Source of the DNA: an uncultured Prevotellaceae bacterium | GTDB taxonomy: Bacteria > Bacteroidota > Bacteroidia > Bacteroidales > Bacteroidaceae | Direction of reading: 5' to 3' | DNA length: 64,000 nt | Assembly: GCA_900316645.1 (NCBI GenBank) | Contig: ONDP01000003.1 | Location: 40,258-104,257, forward strand | Translations under genes and position numbers: made by a program | The notes under the pieces: model-generated | What the model saw: only the letters and a program-made list of their open reading frames with translations | Told to the model about the DNA's origin: nothing | The model's database searches: none | Shown here: in pieces, positions 5,632 through 47,709 of the stretch | Layout of the letters: every line of letters begins with the position of its first letter | Position numbering within the stretch: position 1 is the stretch's first letter

Positions 5632-6234
5632 ATGAGAAAAAAATCACTGCTTTTCTGTTTTTTGTGTTGCTATATCATAGCAGCCTTATCCTCGTGTTCT
5701 GCTACTCAGACTACCATCGACCACTCAGAGAGCCACCATATAGATAGCAGCTTTGTGCAGATGCAGTTGCAGCAGTTGGTCAGTCAGCAGCAGGCCCGTT
5801 ACGACTCTCTGATGCGTGTGGTGCAGCAGCGTGACTCGATTTCCCAGAATATCAACGAGCAGGAGCGTGAGCACATCACCGAAACGGTTACGTCGTGGAT
5901 CGACTCGCTGGGGCGCAAGGTGACTCAGGAGGCCCGTACCATCGACCGCCAGCGTGACCGATCAGAGGAACTGCGTCAGCAGCGTATCATCAATGAGCAG
6001 GAGCAACGCATCCAGTCGTGCCAGGAGCGCATCGACTCGCTCTATAATCTCTTACTCGAAAAGACGGCTCTGGAGGTAAACGACACAACCAATTACCACA
6101 AAGAGGTCATCAAACCGGCACACACGCCATCGTTCCTACAACGTGTGCATGACTTCTTTACTACCTTGGTCAATGTCATCGTCTTTGCTGCTATCTTCGC
6201 CTTTATCATTCGCTGGAAACGCCGTAAGTCGTAA
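5632..6234 (+). CDS. Lipoprotein with C-terminal TM helix; candidate unimolecular spanin
   Basis: Begins with a signal peptide and lipobox (LSSC, cysteine at residue 23), continues as a long Gln/Glu/Arg-rich coiled coil (about residues 35-145) and ends in one hydrophobic helix (about 175-193) followed by a basic tail RWKRRKS. An outer-membrane lipid anchor, a periplasmic coiled coil and an inner-membrane helix in one chain is the topology of unimolecular spanins (phage T1 gp11 type), which fuse inner and outer membranes at lysis. No homology was tested and no endolysin or holin was recognised nearby. Its 3' end overlaps the convergent radical SAM gene by 29 bp. Confidence 0.6.
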   Translation: MRKKSLLFCFLCCYIIAALSSCSATQTTIDHSESHHIDSSFVQMQLQQLVSQQQARYDSLMRVVQQRDSISQNINEQEREHITETVTSWIDSLGRKVTQEARTIDRQRDRSEELRQQRIINEQEQRIQSCQERIDSLYNLLLEKTALEVNDTTNYHKEVIKPAHTPSFLQRVHDFFTTLVNVIVFAAIFAFIIRWKRRKS

Positions 6235-7215
6235 GATACTCCCTACACCTGAAGCCTTTTCGTGGCTCAAACTCTTCAAAGGAATGGGCTACGAAATGGG
6301 CTTTTTTGTTGACCCATCCTGCCATGTCCTTTTGCCATTGTGGAATGATATGGTGTGGGTTGTTAGGATCACGGTAGGGCTGGGCATGTGGATAGACATA
6401 GCGGCCCTGATGTGAGGCCCGCGTCTCTTGTGTACGATGCCACCAATAGGTGATGCGCTCGTAGCACTCCCTGAAGTCTGAGGTGAGCATGGTGTATAGG
6501 AAGTATTGCCCTGTGAAGCCGTAGCGGTTGATCATATTCATGGCCCGCTCACATTCTGCTATCTGTCCGTGTGTGTCACAGCCGAAGCGGATGCGGTTGT
6601 TATCGAGCCACTTCACTTTTGCCAGCAGCTGTGCTATCTCATCCGTTACCAGTCGTGCATCGAGGGCCTGATTGAAGTCCACTCGGTAGCCTCTTTCTAT
6701 AATCTTTTGCAGCTGCTGTATGCAGTAGTCGCCAGCAGCCAGAATATTGTTATCCATCAGCACTAACTTACGACGGCCCTCAATGGCTATTTCGTCCACA
6801 TCCATATATGGCCGGATGGCTCCCTCTTTCTTGGGCACCACACACCAACGGCATTTGTTAGGACAGCCGCGAGTGAGGAATCCGTAGGCAGTATCTTTCG
6901 GGATGTTAGGATAGATGGAGTAGTCTGGCTGCAAACGGTCTATTTCGTCGGGCAACTGGCTCAGAGGATCATAGCCGGTGCCTCCTTTGATGATTTTGTC
7001 TGCATCGTAGATATAAGTATCGTCTGGGGAAAAGTTAAACACTTTCGACATATACACAATGTCGTAGTGCTCCATGGGGCTTGCCCATGAGATTTGCCCC
7101 CCCCCCTATTACGCCAGTATCTCGCAATCTTAGCGAGTGCGAGATTGGGGTAAATCGTGGCTCCCCACTTTTTTTTCTTGGCGTGTCCGTCCACGTCCAC
7201 AAGTCCTATCTTCAT
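6206..7215 (-). CDS. Radical SAM protein, frame broken at a G10 tract
   Basis: Starts at 7215 (MKIGLVDVDGH) and is joined at the homopolymer 7097-7106 (C on this strand, G in the gene) to a frame ending at 6206. As written, 10 G shift the frame. With 8 or 11 G the product reads NRGGQISWASPMEHYD and continues to 336 aa. The radical SAM cluster motif is RGCPNKCRWC (Cys-x3-Cys-x2-Cys). The N-terminal part resembles the B12-binding-like half of this class, with MKIGLVDVDGH and a PNLALAKIARY helix. The substrate is unknown; similar proteins are frequent in gut phages. A truncated start at 7075 would lose the N-terminal domain. Confidence 0.8.
7097..7106 (-). repeat. G10 homopolymer (off length) in radical SAM gene
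   Basis: Read on the minus strand, ten G followed by CAAATC. A length of 8 (or 11) restores the frame. Confidence 0.85.
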
Positions 7216-7310
7216 ATATTAAGCATGTTTGAACAGTCTTATTTTGCAGAAATCTGTCACATTAAGCAGGTTTGAAACTTCTTAATTTACAGATACCCGT
7301 CAAATTCTAA

Positions 7311-7737: not shown

Positions 7738-8551
7738 TCATATCTCGAAATCTAATGTTAGCTGTCTGCTTGCTTCTCTGATGCGTTTTTTAGCAACCTT
7801 GAAATACTTTGGGTCTTTCTCGATGCCGATATACTGCCTTTTCTCCATGATGGCCGCTACACAGGTGGTGCCGCTTCCCATCGTATTGTCTAAAATTACC
7901 CCCCCCCATTTGGCTATAAGTCCTTATCAGGTAGCGTAGCAGATCCACGGGCTTTTGTGTCGGATGGAACACAGTGGTCTCATGCTCTTTCTGAATATGG
8001 ATGATGCTCTGAGGAAATTTCTCGTTGGGTCGGGTAGGGGCCACCTTGCGTATTTGCTTATCGTAGTCATACGTTCTGCCGGTCTTGAACTGTCCGTAAC
8101 AGTTGTTAGTCCTGGGGTGCTCCAACTTCCCCTGGGAATGGTTTGGCTCTCCGATGCCCATCTGAGGGTTATAGACAGGCAGCTGCTTATAGAACACACA
8201 AATATCCTCATGGCAACGCATGGGCATACGGTTGGCATTCAGAAAGCCGGTGCCGCGTCCTTTATCCCATATCAGATTGTATCTCCAGAGCTTCCTATTG
8301 CTTTGCATGAGGTCGCTGGTAAACATTCCCTGGGCAAAGAGTATAATTGCACCATTGGGCTTAATAATGCGCTCATATTGCGCCCAAAGTGGCTGGAACG
8401 GAATTATTCGGTCCCATTGCGCATTAGGGTTGTCTTTGTGAAGCACCTGGTATGGCAGATCGCAGATGATGGCATCAATGCTTTCGTCTGCTATCCCTGT
8501 CATCAGGTCCAGGCAGTCGCCTAAGTATATGTTGTTTGGCTCTACGTTCAT
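7738..8551 (-). CDS. Beta-class DNA adenine/cytosine-N4 methyltransferase, frame broken at a G9 tract
   Basis: Transfers a methyl group from AdoMet to an exocyclic amino group in DNA. Motif IV is CDLPYQ near residue 35, followed by the target region and the FHPTQKPVDLLRYLI motif; the AdoMet motif comes last, which is the beta order. As written, nine G at 7899-7907 shift the frame and the protein ends as an unrelated tail at 7790. With 8 G the frame continues GGVILDNTMGSGTT and IGIEKDPKYF to a stop at 7738, restoring motif I. The 9-G state therefore encodes a protein without AdoMet binding and should be inactive. Confidence 0.88.
7899..7907 (-). repeat. G9 homopolymer (off length) in methyltransferase gene
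   Basis: Nine G on the minus strand followed by TAATTT. The in-frame length is 8 (atG GGG GGG Gta). Confidence 0.88.
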
Positions 8552-9168
8552 TTCGTTTCTATTGAGTTTCCATCGTTTGTGACCTTCAGGCGAAACATCT
8601 TCAGGCGGTCATCACCATCTGAGAGGTTGGCATTGAGCCAGGCCATGATGTTCTCGCCCACGAACTCCATGATATCCTTTGTGTCGTAGGTGTCGCAGGA
8701 TGGATAGGTCATTTCCACTTCGATCGTCAGCTTCTTATAGGGCTTCGGATAATTGAGCATCTGGTGTTTCCATTTCTCCATGTCCTCGAAAGATGGTTTG
8801 AATTGGGGAAAGATGATCTTATCAGGGATAGAGCCTAATGTGCTCTTTGGAGCAGGCACACTCTTTACCTCTTCCAACGCCTGAAAGAAAGCCTCGAAGG
8901 GTAGTCTGTGAAAGCCTAACTCATCCTGTGGATGCAATTCGGCATATTGCTTATCGAAGAGAGACACGATGCTTGGTACTGGTCTGCCGCTAATGATACA
9001 TATCATTCTTGCTGAGTATTTGATATGGCGGTGCTTGGTGCCTCGTGCCAGTTTTACGCCTGGTATTGGCGTATCGTCGTAGATGATAGTCGTATCGAAG
9101 TCGTACACCTGTCCTACTTCAAACTTCGCTCCTTCGATTTCCAGTCCTATAATACACTTCGCTTTCAT
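8548..9168 (-). CDS. Hypothetical protein, 206 aa
   Basis: Not recognised. The N-terminal 60 residues are beta-rich (MKAKCIIGLEIEGAKFEVGQVYDF...); the centre is helical, and the C-terminal segment is acidic (NLSDGDDRLK). Its end overlaps the start of the methyltransferase by 4 bp, so the two are probably translationally coupled. The leader carries the ATTCATAAATT element. Confidence 0.65.
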   Translation of the reverse strand: MKAKCIIGLEIEGAKFEVGQVYDFDTTIIYDDTPIPGVKLARGTKHRHIKYSARMICIISGRPVPSIVSLFDKQYAELHPQDELGFHRLPFEAFFQALEEVKSVPAPKSTLGSIPDKIIFPQFKPSFEDMEKWKHQMLNYPKPYKKLTIEVEMTYPSCDTYDTKDIMEFVGENIMAWLNANLSDGDDRLKMFRLKVTNDGNSIETK

Positions 9169-10961: not shown

Positions 10962-11452
10962 GGGCAAATCATTCTTTTTAGATGGTCTAATGCTGCATTG
11001 ATTTCGTGGATGTTGTCATTATTGCTTTCCCCATACATACGCAGCAGCTCTTTCACACGCTGTTTGAAGGCTCTGTTTGGATGGTGAATCACTTTCATTT
11101 CGCTTCCGTCGGTTCCTTTCTCTACGACGATGTGCAGGCCGGAAATGATCTCTGCCAGTTCCTCTTTCGACACTTCACGCACAAAGATGCCGGCAATCTC
11201 GGTATAGCGGTATGTGTTGCCGTTTTCAATGACTGTCACGTTCCACTCAGGGCAGCAGCCTGGCTTTGATGGTGGGTACTTGAAAATCTGTTTGATGGTA
11301 ACAACATTGCTGAAGATGTCAACAACCTTTTGGCCTACCTCAAAGAGAAACGGTTTTACGCTTGTAATGGCGTAGTCCTCTTCTTTATTCCATTTGTCCC
11401 TGGCAATTACTGCACTGCCATCTTCTCGGACGTTTATTGAGTATTCTAACAT
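10958..11452 (-). CDS. Hypothetical protein, 164 aa
   Basis: Not recognised. The N-terminal two thirds alternate hydrophobic residues in a beta pattern and include a central CCPEW; the C-terminal third is helical (HPNRAFKQRVKELLRMYG). It overlaps the small ORF downstream by 4 bp, as expected in a coupled operon. Confidence 0.6.
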   Translation of the reverse strand: MLEYSINVREDGSAVIARDKWNKEEDYAITSVKPFLFEVGQKVVDIFSNVVTIKQIFKYPPSKPGCCPEWNVTVIENGNTYRYTEIAGIFVREVSKEELAEIISGLHIVVEKGTDGSEMKVIHHPNRAFKQRVKELLRMYGESNNDNIHEINAALDHLKRMICP

Positions 11453-30828: not shown

Positions 30829-30982
30829 ATGGTAGCACAGTCCCCTATTGTCCTCGGTCAATATTCTCCGTCTCAGAATGGCATAGTGGTGTCGCCTTTT
30901 GGCCCATCACTATGTGTTTCTGGGGGGGGGCAATGGCCATGATACAGACAAACCCAAAATACTTATAGAGTATGACCTGTAG
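30829..30982 (+). CDS. TRD cassette A, frame off (G9)
   Basis: Starts at the ATG 1 bp after dut. With an 8-G tract (nine present at 30922-30930) it encodes about 50 aa: MVAQSPIVLGQYSPSQNG, VVSPFGPSLCVSGGG, NGHDTDKPKILIEYDL. It resembles the target-recognition region that follows motif VIII in phage C5-methyltransferases (a loop, GGG-N-G-H, PKIL). As written it stops at TGA just after the tract. Its closest relative is cassette F5 beyond the methyltransferase, which shares SPFG and PKILIEYDL. Confidence 0.65.
30922..30930 (+). repeat. G9 homopolymer in TRD cassette A
   Basis: Nine G followed by CAATGG. The in-frame length is 8 (tct GGG GGG GGc). Confidence 0.85.
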
Positions 30983-31134
30983 GCATTCTGTTACGACAAC
31001 TCTCATTAACCCTGACAGGGGGGGGGCAAATCGCTCGTACCATCAAGTATCAGTATTATAAAACCAGCCTGGCTAACTTTCTGCTGAAAACACAGCGTGG
31101 AGCAACCGGCGTATTGATAGAGTATGATTTTTAG
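30972..31134 (+). CDS. TRD cassette B, frame off (G9)
   Basis: The ATG lies inside the EYD codons of cassette A, overlapping its end by 11 bp. With 8 G at 31018-31026 (nine present) it reads MTCRHSVTTTLINPDRGG, QIARTIKYQYYKTSLANFLL, then GATGVLIEYDF. As written it terminates out of frame. Same C-terminal VLIEYD signature as the other cassettes. Confidence 0.6.
31018..31026 (+). repeat. G9 homopolymer in TRD cassette B
   Basis: Nine G followed by CAAATC. The in-frame length is 8 (aGG GGG GGG caa). Confidence 0.85.
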
Positions 31135-31311
31135 AGTAACCAATGTGGGGAAACCCAAGCAGATTAGGGGGGGCAAATCCGACCTATCAATGTTACGCAA
31201 GATCTTTGCGCTGCCACTCTCACTACCCGCTACGATGCTGTTGGGCCTACTAATATTATCACATTGGCCCATTACCCGATGACAGTTGTATTGATAGAAC
31301 ATGATCTATAA
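31124..31311 (+). CDS. TRD cassette C, frame off (G7)
   Basis: The ATG overlaps the end of cassette B. With 8 G at 31167-31173 (seven present) it reads MIFRVTNVGKPKQIRGGQIR, PINVTQDLCAATLTTRYD, then LAHYPMTVVLIEHDL. Seven G bring a TAG-shifted frame. It is a clear paralogue of F4, sharing PIN, C-x-TL-x-TRYD, LAHYP-x-TV and LIEH. Confidence 0.65.
31167..31173 (+). repeat. G7 homopolymer in TRD cassette C
   Basis: Seven G followed by CAAATC. The in-frame length is 8. Confidence 0.85.
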
Positions 31312-31479
31312 GGCAATAGGTTGGACTCGCTCTGCTTCTGGACGTGGTGACGTTACTCGTTACCATTTGAAGAATGTTTGCAATACCATCACCTCATTTT
31401 CAGGGGGGGCATTGGCAAAGATTCCACAACAGGAATGTATAACACCACTCCTTATATCTTAGTTGAGCACGAACTGTAA
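31301..31479 (+). CDS. TRD cassette D, frame off (G7)
   Basis: The ATG overlaps the end of cassette C by 11 bp. With 8 G at 31403-31409 (seven present) it reads MIYKAIGWTRSASGRGDVTR, YHLKNVCNTITSFSGGG, then NTTPYILVEHEL. GWTR, VCNTIT and YILVE are typical of the C5-methyltransferase recognition region. As written the frame runs on to an unrelated stop. Confidence 0.65.
31403..31409 (+). repeat. G7 homopolymer in TRD cassette D
   Basis: Seven G followed by CATTGG. The in-frame length is 8 (tca GGG GGG GGc). Confidence 0.85.
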
Positions 31480-31490
31480 TAAGAAAAAAT

Positions 31491-32944
31491 ATGATTGCAA
31501 AGATTTATCCAGACAACCACCCTGAACTTCAGGGCAAAAAGGATCCGAAGCACCCTGTGAGGTACTTCGATATCCGAAAACTCACCCCCCCGAATGCTAT
31601 ACGCTCATGGGCGTTCCAAGCCCATACATCGACGTGCTGATGAGTACCGAACAGCGACCTTATACGGCTTTTGTCGGTGTTGATAATCAGCTGGCAGTAT
31701 TCGGACTTGAACCGACGGCAACGATGAAAGAAGTAGAGGAAGCCTACCGTGAGGCCCTGGAAAGCCTTGAAGCTCCTATTCCCGATGATGAAGAGAATGA
31801 TGATGAAGTCCCCGTTTCCGAAGATGAAGACGATGCCGAAGAGATTTCCCTTATGCGCCAGAACTACGAACTGGCCTACAACACTATTCTGAAAGCACCG
31901 ACTGAAGAAAAGTTTGGCCCTGTGCAGATCATCAGTAATAGCAACCACTATAAACTCGCTGGCAACTCCATCGTCTGTGATGTTTTGATGTATATCTATG
32001 AGGAAATTTTCTATCCTACTGGCCGTCGTTTGCCTGCCGAACAGCAGGATATGTTTGCACTGCCTCAGTTCCAGCTTTCCCGTAACTGGAAAAAGCAACC
32101 TCTAAAACTCGTTACTTTGTGTTCTGGCTATGATTCGCAAGCGATTGCATTCGATATGTTGAAAGAGCGTTATCCTGATTTCGATTATAGATTGATGGCT
32201 TGGGCAGAGTTTGACCCTGAAAGTAAACGTGCCCTTGATGAGCAGCCTGCCGTTGTTGCTCATAATCTTCTTTTTCCAGATGCAAAAGACCTCAATCGTG
32301 GCGACATGACAAAGGCTGACTGGAGCGACCTTGCAGATGAAGGAATCGACTTCCTGACTTATTCTACTCCATGTCAGAGTATTTCACAGGCTGGCAAACG
32401 AGAGGGCATCAAAAAAGGCTCTGGCACCCGTTCTGCCGTACTGTGGCATACTGAGGATGCCGTAAAGGTGATGCACCCAAAGATCCTTCTGCAAGAGAAT
32501 GTCCGTGCGCTGATTAACAGCGTCAATATGCCCGACTTCCGCGAGTGGTGTCAACTGTTGGAAAAGTATGGATATGTCAACTTCCTGGCACCGTCATTCC
32601 CGACACCATGGGGAGAAACGAAACGTGATAAGAAGACTATACCAGGCATTCTGAATAGTAAGCATTATGGTGTGCCGCAAAATCGTGAGCGTGTCTATAT
32701 GATTTCTGTCCGTAAGGATGTGCTTGACGATACGCAATATGAGTTTCCGCGTCCATTCCCATTGGAAAAGTGCATTGCAGATATCCTGGAAGATAATGTC
32801 GATGAGCGTTTCTTCCTGAAGCCCGATTCAGTAATCAAATTCCTTACAGTGAATGAGAGTGACCAGCAGGCTCAGATATTCTATATTGTCACAGATCATA
32901 AACTCTCTGATGAAGAGATAGCAAAGGCTCGTGCCGGTCAATAG
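31491..32944 (+). CDS. Circularly permuted cytosine-C5 DNA methyltransferase, catalytic part; frame broken at a C7 tract
   Basis: Methylates carbon 5 of cytosine in DNA. Starting at 31491 the frame is broken by seven C at 31585-31591; eight C give RKLTPPECYTLMGV, motif IX. Next come an acidic insert and HYKLAGNSIVCDVL (motif X), then motif I (LVTLCSGYDSQAIAF), IV (TPCQS, catalytic Cys codon at 32372), VI (LQENVR) and VIII (QNRERVYMISV). Motifs IX and X before I is the circularly permuted order known from M.BssHII, which places the TRD last. Here the chain stops about 45 residues after ILEDNVDERFFL, so the TRD is missing and appears as separate ORFs on both sides. The part after the tract (from 31607) could start separately but lacks motif IX. 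Confidence 0.87.
31585..31591 (+). repeat. C7 homopolymer in the C5-methyltransferase
   Basis: Seven C. Eight restore L-T-P-P-E-C of motif IX. This tract is C-rich on the coding strand, unlike the G tracts in the cassettes. Confidence 0.85.
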
Positions 32945-32946
32945 AT

Positions 32947-33159
32947 ATGATGTACTTGCGTGATAGAGACCCAGCCAGTTCTAATGACTCTGTGAGAGTA
33001 TGCTCCAGTGTAAACCGTGACCTCGATTGCATCAGTTTTCGTGGTGCCCATGCTGACAGAAACTTTCATCAGGTCATAGAACTTGGCTCTTCTCGCGTCA
33101 CGAATACAATAACGTCCGTTCAAAAAGATAACCTCGTATGGATAGAGAGAATGATATAA
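32947..33159 (+). CDS. TRD cassette F1 (intact), 70 aa
   Basis: Starts 2 bp after the methyltransferase stop. It reads MMYLRDRDPASSNDSVRVCS, then LDCISFRG, RNFHQVIELGSSRVTNTITS and LVWIERMI. No homopolymer interrupts it. VTNTITS and the final LVWIE occupy the same positions as NTIT and ILIE in the other cassettes. Probable recognition domain provided in trans to the catalytic chain, or fused to it by readthrough. Confidence 0.6.
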   Translation: MMYLRDRDPASSNDSVRVCSSVNRDLDCISFRGAHADRNFHQVIELGSSRVTNTITSVQKDNLVWIERMI

Positions 33160-33344
33160 AAACCACTCCCGCCACCGTGCCCGATGAGTCAGCAGCGGGT
33201 GCCCCTGTCGGAAAGCCGTTGGGTATTATCCGTTACCCTCACGGCAAGTTTCGTGGTGGCATACGTCCGGCTGATATTCTCCCTCCATTAACCAATTCCG
33301 ATTTTCAAAACAACAACTTTGTCATTATCGAATATGACCTCTAA
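33138..33344 (+). CDS. TRD cassette F2 (intact), 68 aa
   Basis: Overlaps F1 by 22 bp. It reads MDRENDIKTTPATVPDESAA, then IIRYPHGKFRGGIRPADILP, PLTNSDFQ and FVIIEYDL. It has GG at the tract position without a homopolymer (FRGGIRP), so it is not phase-variable. C-terminal IIEYDL matches the family. Confidence 0.6.
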   Translation: MDRENDIKTTPATVPDESAAGAPVGKPLGIIRYPHGKFRGGIRPADILPPLTNSDFQNNNFVIIEYDL

Positions 33345-33596
33345 ATCCGCTGTAAGGCATTATATCCCCAGCCGTCCATTCCTCTCGACCGCTACGAGGG
33401 GGGGCAATTCGTGTTGCAAGTCAGACAGGCAACCGAACTGGGCTATATCGAGTGTGTCAGCGGTGGGTGTTTCGATATGGCTTACCCATCCTCTCAGCTT
33501 CGACGCTCCCGTGTCAAAGAGGATGGGCGTGTTGCTTCCGTCCTGATGTCTGGTGAAACGTCTCAATGTGTGTTTATAGAATATGACTTTGATTAA
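33334..33596 (+). CDS. TRD cassette F3, frame off (G7)
   Basis: The ATG overlaps the end of F2 by 11 bp. With 8 G at 33398-33404 (seven present) it encodes 87 aa: MTSKSAVRHYIPSRPFLSTA, TRGGQFVLQVRQATELGYIE, CVSGGCFDMAYPSSQLRRSR, then VASVLMSGETSQ and VFIEYDFD. RQATELGYIE and SSQLRRSRV are very close to the start of TRDs in ordinary C5-methyltransferases, which makes this the cassette that best ties the array to TRDs. Confidence 0.72.
33398..33404 (+). repeat. G7 homopolymer in TRD cassette F3
   Basis: Seven G followed by CAATTC. The in-frame length is 8. Confidence 0.85.
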
Positions 33597-33783
33597 GCTG
33601 TCGCATACAACCTCCGCACCTCCAAAACCCTTACAGGGGGGGGTACTTCTTCCCATTAACACAGCATCCGGCGGTATCTGTTGCACCCTTAACACCCGTT
33701 ACGACGGTATGCAACTCCCCGAAGACATCCTCAGTCTCGCACATTATCCCAAGACGGTCATCCTTATTGAGCACTATCTATGA
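33583..33783 (+). CDS. TRD cassette F4, frame on (G8), 66 aa
   Basis: The ATG overlaps the end of F3. The tract at 33636-33643 has exactly eight G, and the frame runs through it: MTLIKLSHTTSAPPKPLQGG, VLLPINTASGGICCTLNTRYD, then LAHYPKTVILIEHYL. It is the paralogue of cassette C and shows what an 'on' cassette looks like in this array. Confidence 0.68.
   Translation: MTLIKLSHTTSAPPKPLQGGVLLPINTASGGICCTLNTRYDGMQLPEDILSLAHYPKTVILIEHYL
33636..33643 (+). repeat. G8 homopolymer (on length) in TRD cassette F4
   Basis: Eight G followed by TACTTC. Codon phase caG GGG GGG Gta. Confidence 0.88.
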
Positions 33784-33898
33784 GGGTAGAATCAATGTTT
33801 CGCAGGATGGTTTAATTATTTCTCCTTTTGGCATTTCTCCTACTCATACCGCTGGCCACGGTAATTGTCCCAAAATCCTAATAGAGTACGATTTGTAG
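33773..33898 (+). pseudogene. TRD cassette F5, start codon lost
   Basis: In-frame peptide of 41 residues: IYEGRINVSQDGLIISPFG, then HTAGHGNCPKILIEYDL. At the place where every other cassette has ATG inside the previous stop region, this one has ACT (33773-33775). Changing it back would give MIYEGRINV. A TTG at 33767 is the nearest alternative start. It resembles cassette A and has no homopolymer. It may be silent, or read as an extension after frameshift. Confidence 0.6.
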
Positions 33899-43037: not shown

Positions 43038-43481
43038 ATGGAAAAAACTTTGAATTACCCCCCCCTGGAAGAGCTGAAGACGCTCACGGAGGAAGAGGTC
43101 AGAGCATGGTTTGGAAAAGTCCGTATCTGGCGTGATGAGCACATCGACGAACTGCGTCATCAACAAGAGACGGCCATCTTTAACATCAGGACTGAGCAAA
43201 AGGTGGAACGTAACCGTATTATCTGCCTGATTGAACTGAAACGCTCTCAACTGCCGACTGGTGGCAATACAGATGAGCGTGAGCGAACACTGACACTGCG
43301 TAACGAGATTCATAATCTCGATTACGAAATGCAGACGAATGACATCAACAGCCGTAAAAAAATTGCGGATATCAAGTATGAGTCTAAACGGGCCATCAAT
43401 GACATTCAGCGTCAATGGGAAACCGCTACGGGAACCTTGAAACAAGCCCTCGCTTTCGTCTGCAATAAGACTGAGGACTAA
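43038..43481 (+). CDS. Coiled-coil protein, frame on at a C8 tract, 147 aa
   Basis: MEKTLNYPPLEELKTLTEEEV... The eight C at 43058-43065 encode Pro-Pro, and the frame runs through. Mostly charged helix (about residues 20-125). Function unknown. An indel in the tract would truncate it after about 10 residues, so expression could switch. Confidence 0.65.
   Translation: MEKTLNYPPLEELKTLTEEEVRAWFGKVRIWRDEHIDELRHQQETAIFNIRTEQKVERNRIICLIELKRSQLPTGGNTDERERTLTLRNEIHNLDYEMQTNDINSRKKIADIKYESKRAINDIQRQWETATGTLKQALAFVCNKTED
43058..43065 (+). repeat. C8 homopolymer (on length)
   Basis: Eight C. On the other strand this is G8 followed by TAATTC, the usual flank. Confidence 0.85.
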
Positions 43482-47474: not shown

Positions 47475-47709
47475 CTATGAATCAGTATAATGTATCGGGG
47501 GGGTAAAATCGCCCTTCAGAGGGAATGGACTAAGCCGTACTGCTATGCTCTTTAAGATAGCAACATTGGCAGGTCATAAGTTGACTGTTCCCGAAATGAA
47601 TAAGTTTAAGAATGTCAATCCTCGGAGTCTTGAACGTGTGTATAACGAAGTGATCCGCATGGGTGATTCTGGTAATGCCATGTTTGCCCTACGATTGATA
47701 CTGAAATAA
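47471..47709 (+). CDS. Small protein, frame off (G7), 79 aa if restored
   Basis: MTMNQYNVSGG, then TAA because the tract at 47497-47503 has seven G. With eight, the frame continues VKSPFRGNGLSRTAMLFKI to a stop at 47709 and gives a coherent, basic, helical 79-aa protein. The Met-rich start overlaps the previous gene by 4 bp. Function unknown. Confidence 0.65.
47497..47503 (+). repeat. G7 homopolymer (off length)
   Basis: Seven G followed by TAAAAT. The in-frame length is 8. Confidence 0.85.

Follow-up and report, generated by a model that had tools for sequence, protein, structure and literature searches.

A 3.07-kb array at positions 30829-33898 of a 64-kb stretch of contig ONDP01000003.1, assigned to an uncultured Prevotellaceae bacterium (the whole 64,000-nucleotide stretch is referred to below as the window), likely encodes a multispecific phage C5-cytosine DNA methyltransferase (C5-methyltransferase) whose target-recognition domains (TRDs) are detached polypeptides, separately phase-variable, that would dock onto a common catalytic chain, direct its methylation and be switched on and off. 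This reading is built on sequence comparison, in which we found TRD homology for part of the small open reading frames (ORFs) of the array, here termed cassettes, together with a split gene layout, overlapping starts, coding constraint, variation in tract length and the exchange of cassettes between loci.

At the centre of the array lies a gene whose product matches PF00145 in Pfam (expectation value, E, 2.2e-34) and displays PCQ, ENV and QNRxR—which we take to be motifs IV, VI and VIII—as expected of a C5-cytosine DNA methyltransferase. Motif IX (RKLTP.EC) and motif X (AGNSIV) are located N-terminal to motif I, with motifs I-VIII following, so that the chain is circularly permuted. About 80 residues after motif VIII the chain ends, and nothing cassette-like was found there; a TRD on the same chain is thus missing. 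The first-pass annotation had described a permuted enzyme of this kind, stopping where its TRD should follow, and both the Pfam match and the motif order agree with that description. In the window, a C7 tract (31585-31591) separates the frame of the motif IX start (ATG at 31491) from the rest of the gene, and the continuous methyltransferase ORF is therefore 31607-32944. Two relatives with 96-97% identity (L045 and L046) have C8 at the same site and encode the enzyme as a single unbroken ORF of 484 amino acids. The AlphaFold2 model of the catalytic chain is weak (predicted local distance difference test score, pLDDT, of 54.6), with a core that aligns to HhaI.

Nine cassettes surround the methyltransferase gene, four upstream and five downstream, and all of those listed at first pass are present (Table 1). 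As assembled, three of them (cassettes 5, 6 and 8) are simply open, five shift frame at a G tract and the ninth has a TTG start only.

Table 1. Coordinates of the catalytic gene and the nine TRD cassettes in the window.
Feature	Position	Strand	Remarks
TRD cassette 1	30829..30982	+	G9 tract 30922-30930; frame differs between start and end as assembled
TRD cassette 2	30972..31134	+	G9 tract 31018-31026; out of frame as assembled; ATG within cassette 1 tail
TRD cassette 3	31124..31311	+	G7 tract 31167-31173; out of frame as assembled; ATG within cassette 2 tail
TRD cassette 4	31301..31479	+	G7 tract 31403-31409; out of frame as assembled; last upstream of methyltransferase
Circularly permuted C5-cytosine methyltransferase, catalytic chain	31491..32944	+	motifs IX-X, then I-VIII, without TRD
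TRD cassette 5	32947..33159	+	open, without tract; ends VWIERMI
TRD cassette 6	33138..33344	+	open, without tract
TRD cassette 7 (GYIEC..SSQLRRSRV)	33334..33596	+	G7 tract 33398-33404; out of frame as assembled
TRD cassette 8	33583..33783	+	G8 tract 33636-33643; in frame as assembled
TRD cassette 9	33767..33898	+	TTG start, without own ATG; overlaps cassette 8; last in run

The identity of the cassettes as TRDs, proposed at first pass, is supported for those that can be compared with fused enzymes. When 54 cassette sequences (many of them near-copies) were searched with phmmer against 1445 ORFs of fused or semi-fused C5-methyltransferase and other loci, 23 gave matches, and the matches displayed are TRD repeats located between motif VIII and motif IX of relatives. 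These fused relatives—drawn from Bacteroidales contigs (two Muribaculaceae, one Paramuribaculum, one Bacteroides metagenome-assembled genome (MAG) and one Candidatus Prevotella MAG) and from L039—contain several TRD repeats between VIII and IX, partly broken into several frames, and TRDs homologous to those of the window therefore do occur in fused form. The best match of any window cassette was that of cassette 9 to the TRD after motif VIII of L057/L056 (E 1.8e-13), followed by the post-tract piece of cassette 3, which matched the TRD regions of L039 (E 1.8e-4) and L058 (E 0.0016), by cassette 5 (E ~0.004) and, weakly, by cassette 8 (domain E 0.024-0.028); cassette 6 had no phmmer match among the fused TRDs and groups with an L082 cassette in clustering. 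Moreover, a profile of nine sequences from one cassette group placed residues 236-257 of M.HhaI, part of its TRD, at the top of 177,635 PDB sequences, if only weakly (E 0.1), and the GGG of this match aligns with the site encoded by the G tract in three cassettes of the group. A PDB profile search with the group of cassettes 3 and 8 found no methyltransferase. A core of the TL motif published in PMC2413257, T(I/L/V)(T/S/N/A/V), occurs in 57 of 148 cassettes, as compared with a mean of 22 and a maximum of 41 in shuffled sequences, related copies being counted apart. Among eight cassettes searched against PHROGs, only cassette 7 gave weak matches, to PHROG 16427, 'DNA methyltransferase' (E 0.0034, for its intact copy at L046 1943-2206), and to PHROG 8411, of unknown function (E 0.0018); matches of two other cassettes at E 0.15-0.29 were taken as chance. 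The 148 cassettes fall into 24 clusters, one of which is a wrong-frame artefact (L074_349), and the 47 intact cassettes have a median length of 60 residues.

The way in which the cassettes adjoin each other argues for a series of separate genes. The tail (I/V)LIE(Y/H)D(L/F), attributed at first pass to nearly all of them, holds in some variant for eight of the nine window cassettes and fails for cassette 5. In the shared ending (I/V)LIEY(D/E), the codons for Y/H and D/E (TAT-GA or CAT-GA) also contain, in a different frame, the ATG from which the next cassette starts; in runs without a following cassette the codon is usually TAC or CAC, as in cassette 9 (TAC) and in cassette 4 (CAC, without an embedded ATG). 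An out-of-frame ATG was found within the last 24 nucleotides (nt) of 109 of the 110 internal cassettes (L007 being omitted from this count) and of one of 13 hand-picked run-ending cassettes. By comparison, 32 of the window's 81 further long open frames have one. The sole internal exception is a cassette 8 (L049 9481), whose successor, a cassette 9, has no ATG. Such starts embedded in shared tails suggest that the cassettes are translated as separate polypeptides by stop-start coupling. The clearest case is L082, where a catalytic ORF is followed by 15 intact small ORFs and then, as the third element, by an ORF with motifs IX-X, in canonical order; nine of its 17 junctions overlap by exactly 14 nt, no tract of at least 7 nt is present, and one further module lacks an in-frame ATG. 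L009 has eight cassettes, six of them ORFs that are intact and free of tracts, and its one G9 tract lies before the catalytic gene, outside the intact cassettes. Individual cassettes that are broken in the window also have unbroken counterparts elsewhere: cassette 1, by eye, in L009 (6955-7113, intact and tract-free) and L095 (2904-3194), cassette 2, also by eye, in L049 (5628-5771) and cassette 4 in L045 (5810-5989). Mismatches between the window and L045 are distributed over codon positions 1/2/3 as 3/5/20 before tracts or in tract-free cassettes, and as 18/12/43 after tracts. Cassette 3, whose post-tract (recognition) part is strongly different between the two loci, contributes 15/11/28 of the latter; without it, 15 of 19 fall at third positions. 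This substitution pattern shows coding constraint on both sides of the tracts.

Six cassettes contain a G tract (G9, G9, G7, G7, G7 and G8, in order) and the methyltransferase gene contains C7. The suggestion that several cassettes are switchable by G8 tracts thus stands as to the presence of tracts and their natural variation in length, and needs correction as to the lengths, which are G7-G9 plus C7 and not all G8; five of the six tract-bearing cassettes are out of frame as assembled. Seven of the window's 11 G/C tracts of at least 7 nt are concentrated in the array (binomial p 1.6e-7; second-order Markov expectation 0.05), and glycine is otherwise seldom encoded by GGG (4.6% of its codons, counted over seven large ORFs). 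Across 11 loci, with array ends set by hand, the arrays (40.1 kb in total) contain 111 tracts, as against 6 in the remaining 149.9 kb. Tract length also varies between close relatives. All six insertions or deletions (indels) that distinguish the 3.07-kb array from its counterpart in L045 (96% identical) lie inside tracts, the C tract of the methyltransferase included. L095 and L096 differ by 1.35% over their aligned region; from the methyltransferase start onwards they are separated by five indels, four of them in G tracts, and the stretch upstream of that start, cassettes included, differs between the two. The array therefore displays the sequence features of simple-sequence phase-variable genes—a tract within the ORF, a tract length that varies between close relatives and a frame that changes with it. 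Among the 70 tract-bearing cassettes whose start could be resolved, the assemblies show 31 in frame and 39 out of frame. Spurious fragments were dropped from the cassette set (L050 9165, L054 8540 and L007 2311), and the phase-state count also excludes window 33159, L045 7670 and L046 1768, in which the methyltransferase tract was misassigned, as well as the spurious L047 5644 and 5651.

The split layout was found on 16 other contigs: L045/L003, L046/L002 (cut at the contig end), L047, L048, L049/L004, L050, L051/L005, L052, L053/L006, L054, L007 (with two cassettes seen), L009, L080, L082, L095 and L096. In two of these 16, L082 and L009, the cassettes are intact and nearly tract-free. Two cassette queries reached 16 contigs, 14 of which have the methyltransferase, the array in the other two being truncated where the contig stops (L074 and L066 are contig ends of this kind); cassettes with no C5-methyltransferase nearby, the finding that the first-pass annotation had named as speaking against its proposal, did not appear among them. 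Two contigs contain an extra cassette ~8 kb from the methyltransferase; a cassette-7-like ORF bearing a G9/G7 tract stands alone at L095 ~11160-11416 and at the matching site in L096, some 8 kb away from the array. A cassette-4 profile run against 149 genomes, mostly of the same genus, matched solely in the window's own genome. A wider scan returned at least 538 relatives, of which the best 80, classified by rough rules, comprise 49 fused enzymes, 12 split enzymes in canonical order (one of them on the contig of L082), 3 permuted ones and 16 left unresolved. In three of the split loci, L119, L145 and L125, the region from the catalytic part to motif IX contains 8, 11 and 17 tracts. On these counts, the class seems to extend beyond the window's own group. 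Two further observations were made: the C5-methyltransferase of a Candidatus Prevotella equi MAG (L060 3616-4932) has, by eye, an intein-like insertion between P and C of PCQ, and L074 begins with 51 C's (1-51) adjoining a cassette, probably an assembly artefact.

On this basis, we propose that one catalytic chain with motifs IX-X and I-VIII, itself without a TRD, would supply catalysis, and that target recognition would be provided by separate polypeptides of roughly 43-100 residues, one TRD each, whose translation would be coupled from stop to start along a single operon. Most likely, the TRDs would take turns at the place of a built-in TRD, between motif VIII and motif IX, each docking there and directing methylation to its own target sequence. 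Slippage of the G/C tracts in replication would bring the downstream part of a TRD gene or of the catalytic gene into or out of frame, deciding which TRDs, and whether any enzyme at all, get made. Since TRD and catalytic genes would both slip, a phage population would contain a wide range of methylation patterns, with none when the catalytic gene is off and up to several at once, and this variety would probably evade restriction by different hosts. Docking in trans, the change of specificity, slippage as the cause of tract variation and the anti-restriction role are the steps that we infer. With less assurance, we also lean towards a stronger form of the proposal, namely a combinatorial specificity bank in which the catalytic chain is shared by ~9-16 freely diffusing TRDs, each switched independently by its tract, under a master tract in the catalytic gene.

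Several points weigh against the proposal of detached, phase-variable TRDs. The phmmer search of 1445 ORFs gave no fused counterpart for 31 of the 54 cassette queries, so that their assignment as TRDs rests on position, tail and neighbours; Pfam returned no family for the cassettes submitted (sets of 5 and 7), and the single-chain predicted fold of a lone cassette was uninformative (pLDDT 42.9). The 13 run-ending cassettes were picked by hand after the tails had been seen, and so not blind. Phase states were read from single assembled consensus sequences, and the tract state could not be resolved in 25 of 119 cassettes. Finally, the catalytic gene of L009 is frame-broken, and L008 retains only a C-terminal methyltransferase remnant, with no cassette found by eye in its translations.

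A different explanation, which we regard as unlikely, is that the cassettes are a silent or donor bank recombining into one expressed TRD position, e.g., a TRD fused ahead of motif IX. Four loci (L047, L048, L053 and L054) each have one cassette in such a position, the methyltransferase frame reaching upstream through a cassette-like TRD directly into motif IX, in the order of ordinary enzymes; the exchange of cassettes between near-identical loci, seen in cassette 3 (window versus L045) and in the upstream cassettes of L095 versus L096, likewise suits recombination. However, a fused position that could receive them is missing from the window, L045, L046 and L050, where the last upstream cassette ends 11-12 nt before the methyltransferase start, and the cassettes have overlapping starts, coding-type substitutions and tracts of their own. 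Less probable still is that ribosomes or RNA polymerase slip at the overlaps and tracts and so yield longer multi-TRD polypeptides, which would make the enzyme a fused multispecific methyltransferase. G tracts are in general able to induce slippage, some relatives do have several TRDs fused (L055-L058, Dulem virus 39 and 40), and the alternative post-tract frame of cassette 8 (33636-33898 in the window) is open in five loci; in the window, L045, L046 and L049 it enters cassette 9. The open frame may reflect a two-way switch dedicated to cassettes 8 and 9, but three of the five loci are near-identical and the sequence is conserved. Yet separate stops and starts are kept in L082 and L009, where long tracts are absent or lie outside the intact cassettes, and of the 108 alternative frames in post-tract segments 90 nt or longer (L047 5644 still being counted here), only six are open, five of them belonging to cassette 8. 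We reject, as highly improbable, a decaying fused multi-TRD methyltransferase or homopolymer sequencing or assembly errors: six of the ten array genes are frame-broken as assembled and homopolymers are a known source of assembly error, but the third-position bias relative to L045 (20 of the 28 mismatches that precede tracts or lie in intact cassettes, and 43 of the 73 that follow tracts, or 15 of 19 without cassette 3), the layout conserved at 52-97% identity, the embedded starts, the rarity of GGG elsewhere and the existence of intact arrays without long tracts all speak against these readings.

Fused multi-TRD, split, permuted and phase-variable methyltransferases are each already known. PMC12707154 and PMC8936443 describe multispecific C5-methyltransferases of the Bacillus temperate phages SPR, phi3T, rho11 and H2, and M.(phi)BssHII, which resemble the present system in having several TRDs per catalytic core and which guard against many restriction systems; their TRDs, however, lie in one polypeptide, between motifs VIII and IX, whereas those of the window are separate ORFs, most with a homopolymer tract. 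The permuted motif order of the window chain is that of the M.BssHII/M.Alw26I group, in which, according to PMC5944983, IX-X precede I-VIII and the break lies in the variable region. A likeness also exists to phasevarion mod genes and switching hsdS, in which random on/off switching or cassette exchange alters methylation; the examples described there are bacterial Type III (adenine) and Type I systems, whereas here many small C5 TRD genes with tracts are found, in a phage. The annotated phage relative Dulem virus 40 (PP511379.1) encodes a 258-amino-acid catalytic chain and a 373-amino-acid chain with tandem TRDs and IX-X, the latter including, by eye, a relative of cassette 7; in contrast to the window, its TRDs are fused in one chain, the motif order is canonical and no G/C tract of at least 7 nt occurs in the stretch read. 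M.AquI, which we take to consist of two fixed chains, the second with the TRD together with IX-X, differs in that IX-X are on the catalytic chain in the window's group and the TRD alone is separate and multiple. Likewise, the TRD is presumably part of the chain in the M.BssHII/M.Alw26I family, whereas the window chain has none. We know of no methyltransferase with detached, repeated, individually switchable TRDs, and in the open-access literature we recognised no description of free-standing or individually phase-variable TRD arrays, a search that covered open-licence papers only and leaves absence unproven.

Elsewhere in the window, an N6/N4-type DNA methylase gene (7738-8608, minus strand; PF01555, E 6.6e-12) contains a C9 tract (7899-7907), and the C-terminal part of its product seems to lie in another frame beyond the G9 of the coding strand. 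It would be a second apparently phase-variable methyltransferase on the contig, which fits a general strategy. A radical-SAM-like gene (6206-7218, minus strand; E 0.0023, below the Pfam cut-off) has a C10 tract (7097-7106), with its N-terminal part seemingly in another frame across the G10 tract. Two further genes are possibly phase-variable: a 147-amino-acid ORF with a C8 tract (43058-43065) shortly past its start, and a 72-amino-acid frame (47491-47709) with a G7 tract at its start.

The DNA specificity of C5-methyltransferases is usually viewed as a built-in domain, and here it appears in the form of small interchangeable subunits. If the cassettes work in trans, they would constitute a natural toolkit for programmable cytosine methylation and a clean system for studying how a TRD docks and reads DNA. 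They would also be a phage counterpart to phasevarions, and might account for the ability of phages to keep up as restriction systems change. Should the combinatorial bank prove true, one phage lineage could show very many methylation patterns without recombination—and, if our reading is right, a phage population could shuffle the DNA marks that hide the phage from bacterial restriction enzymes.

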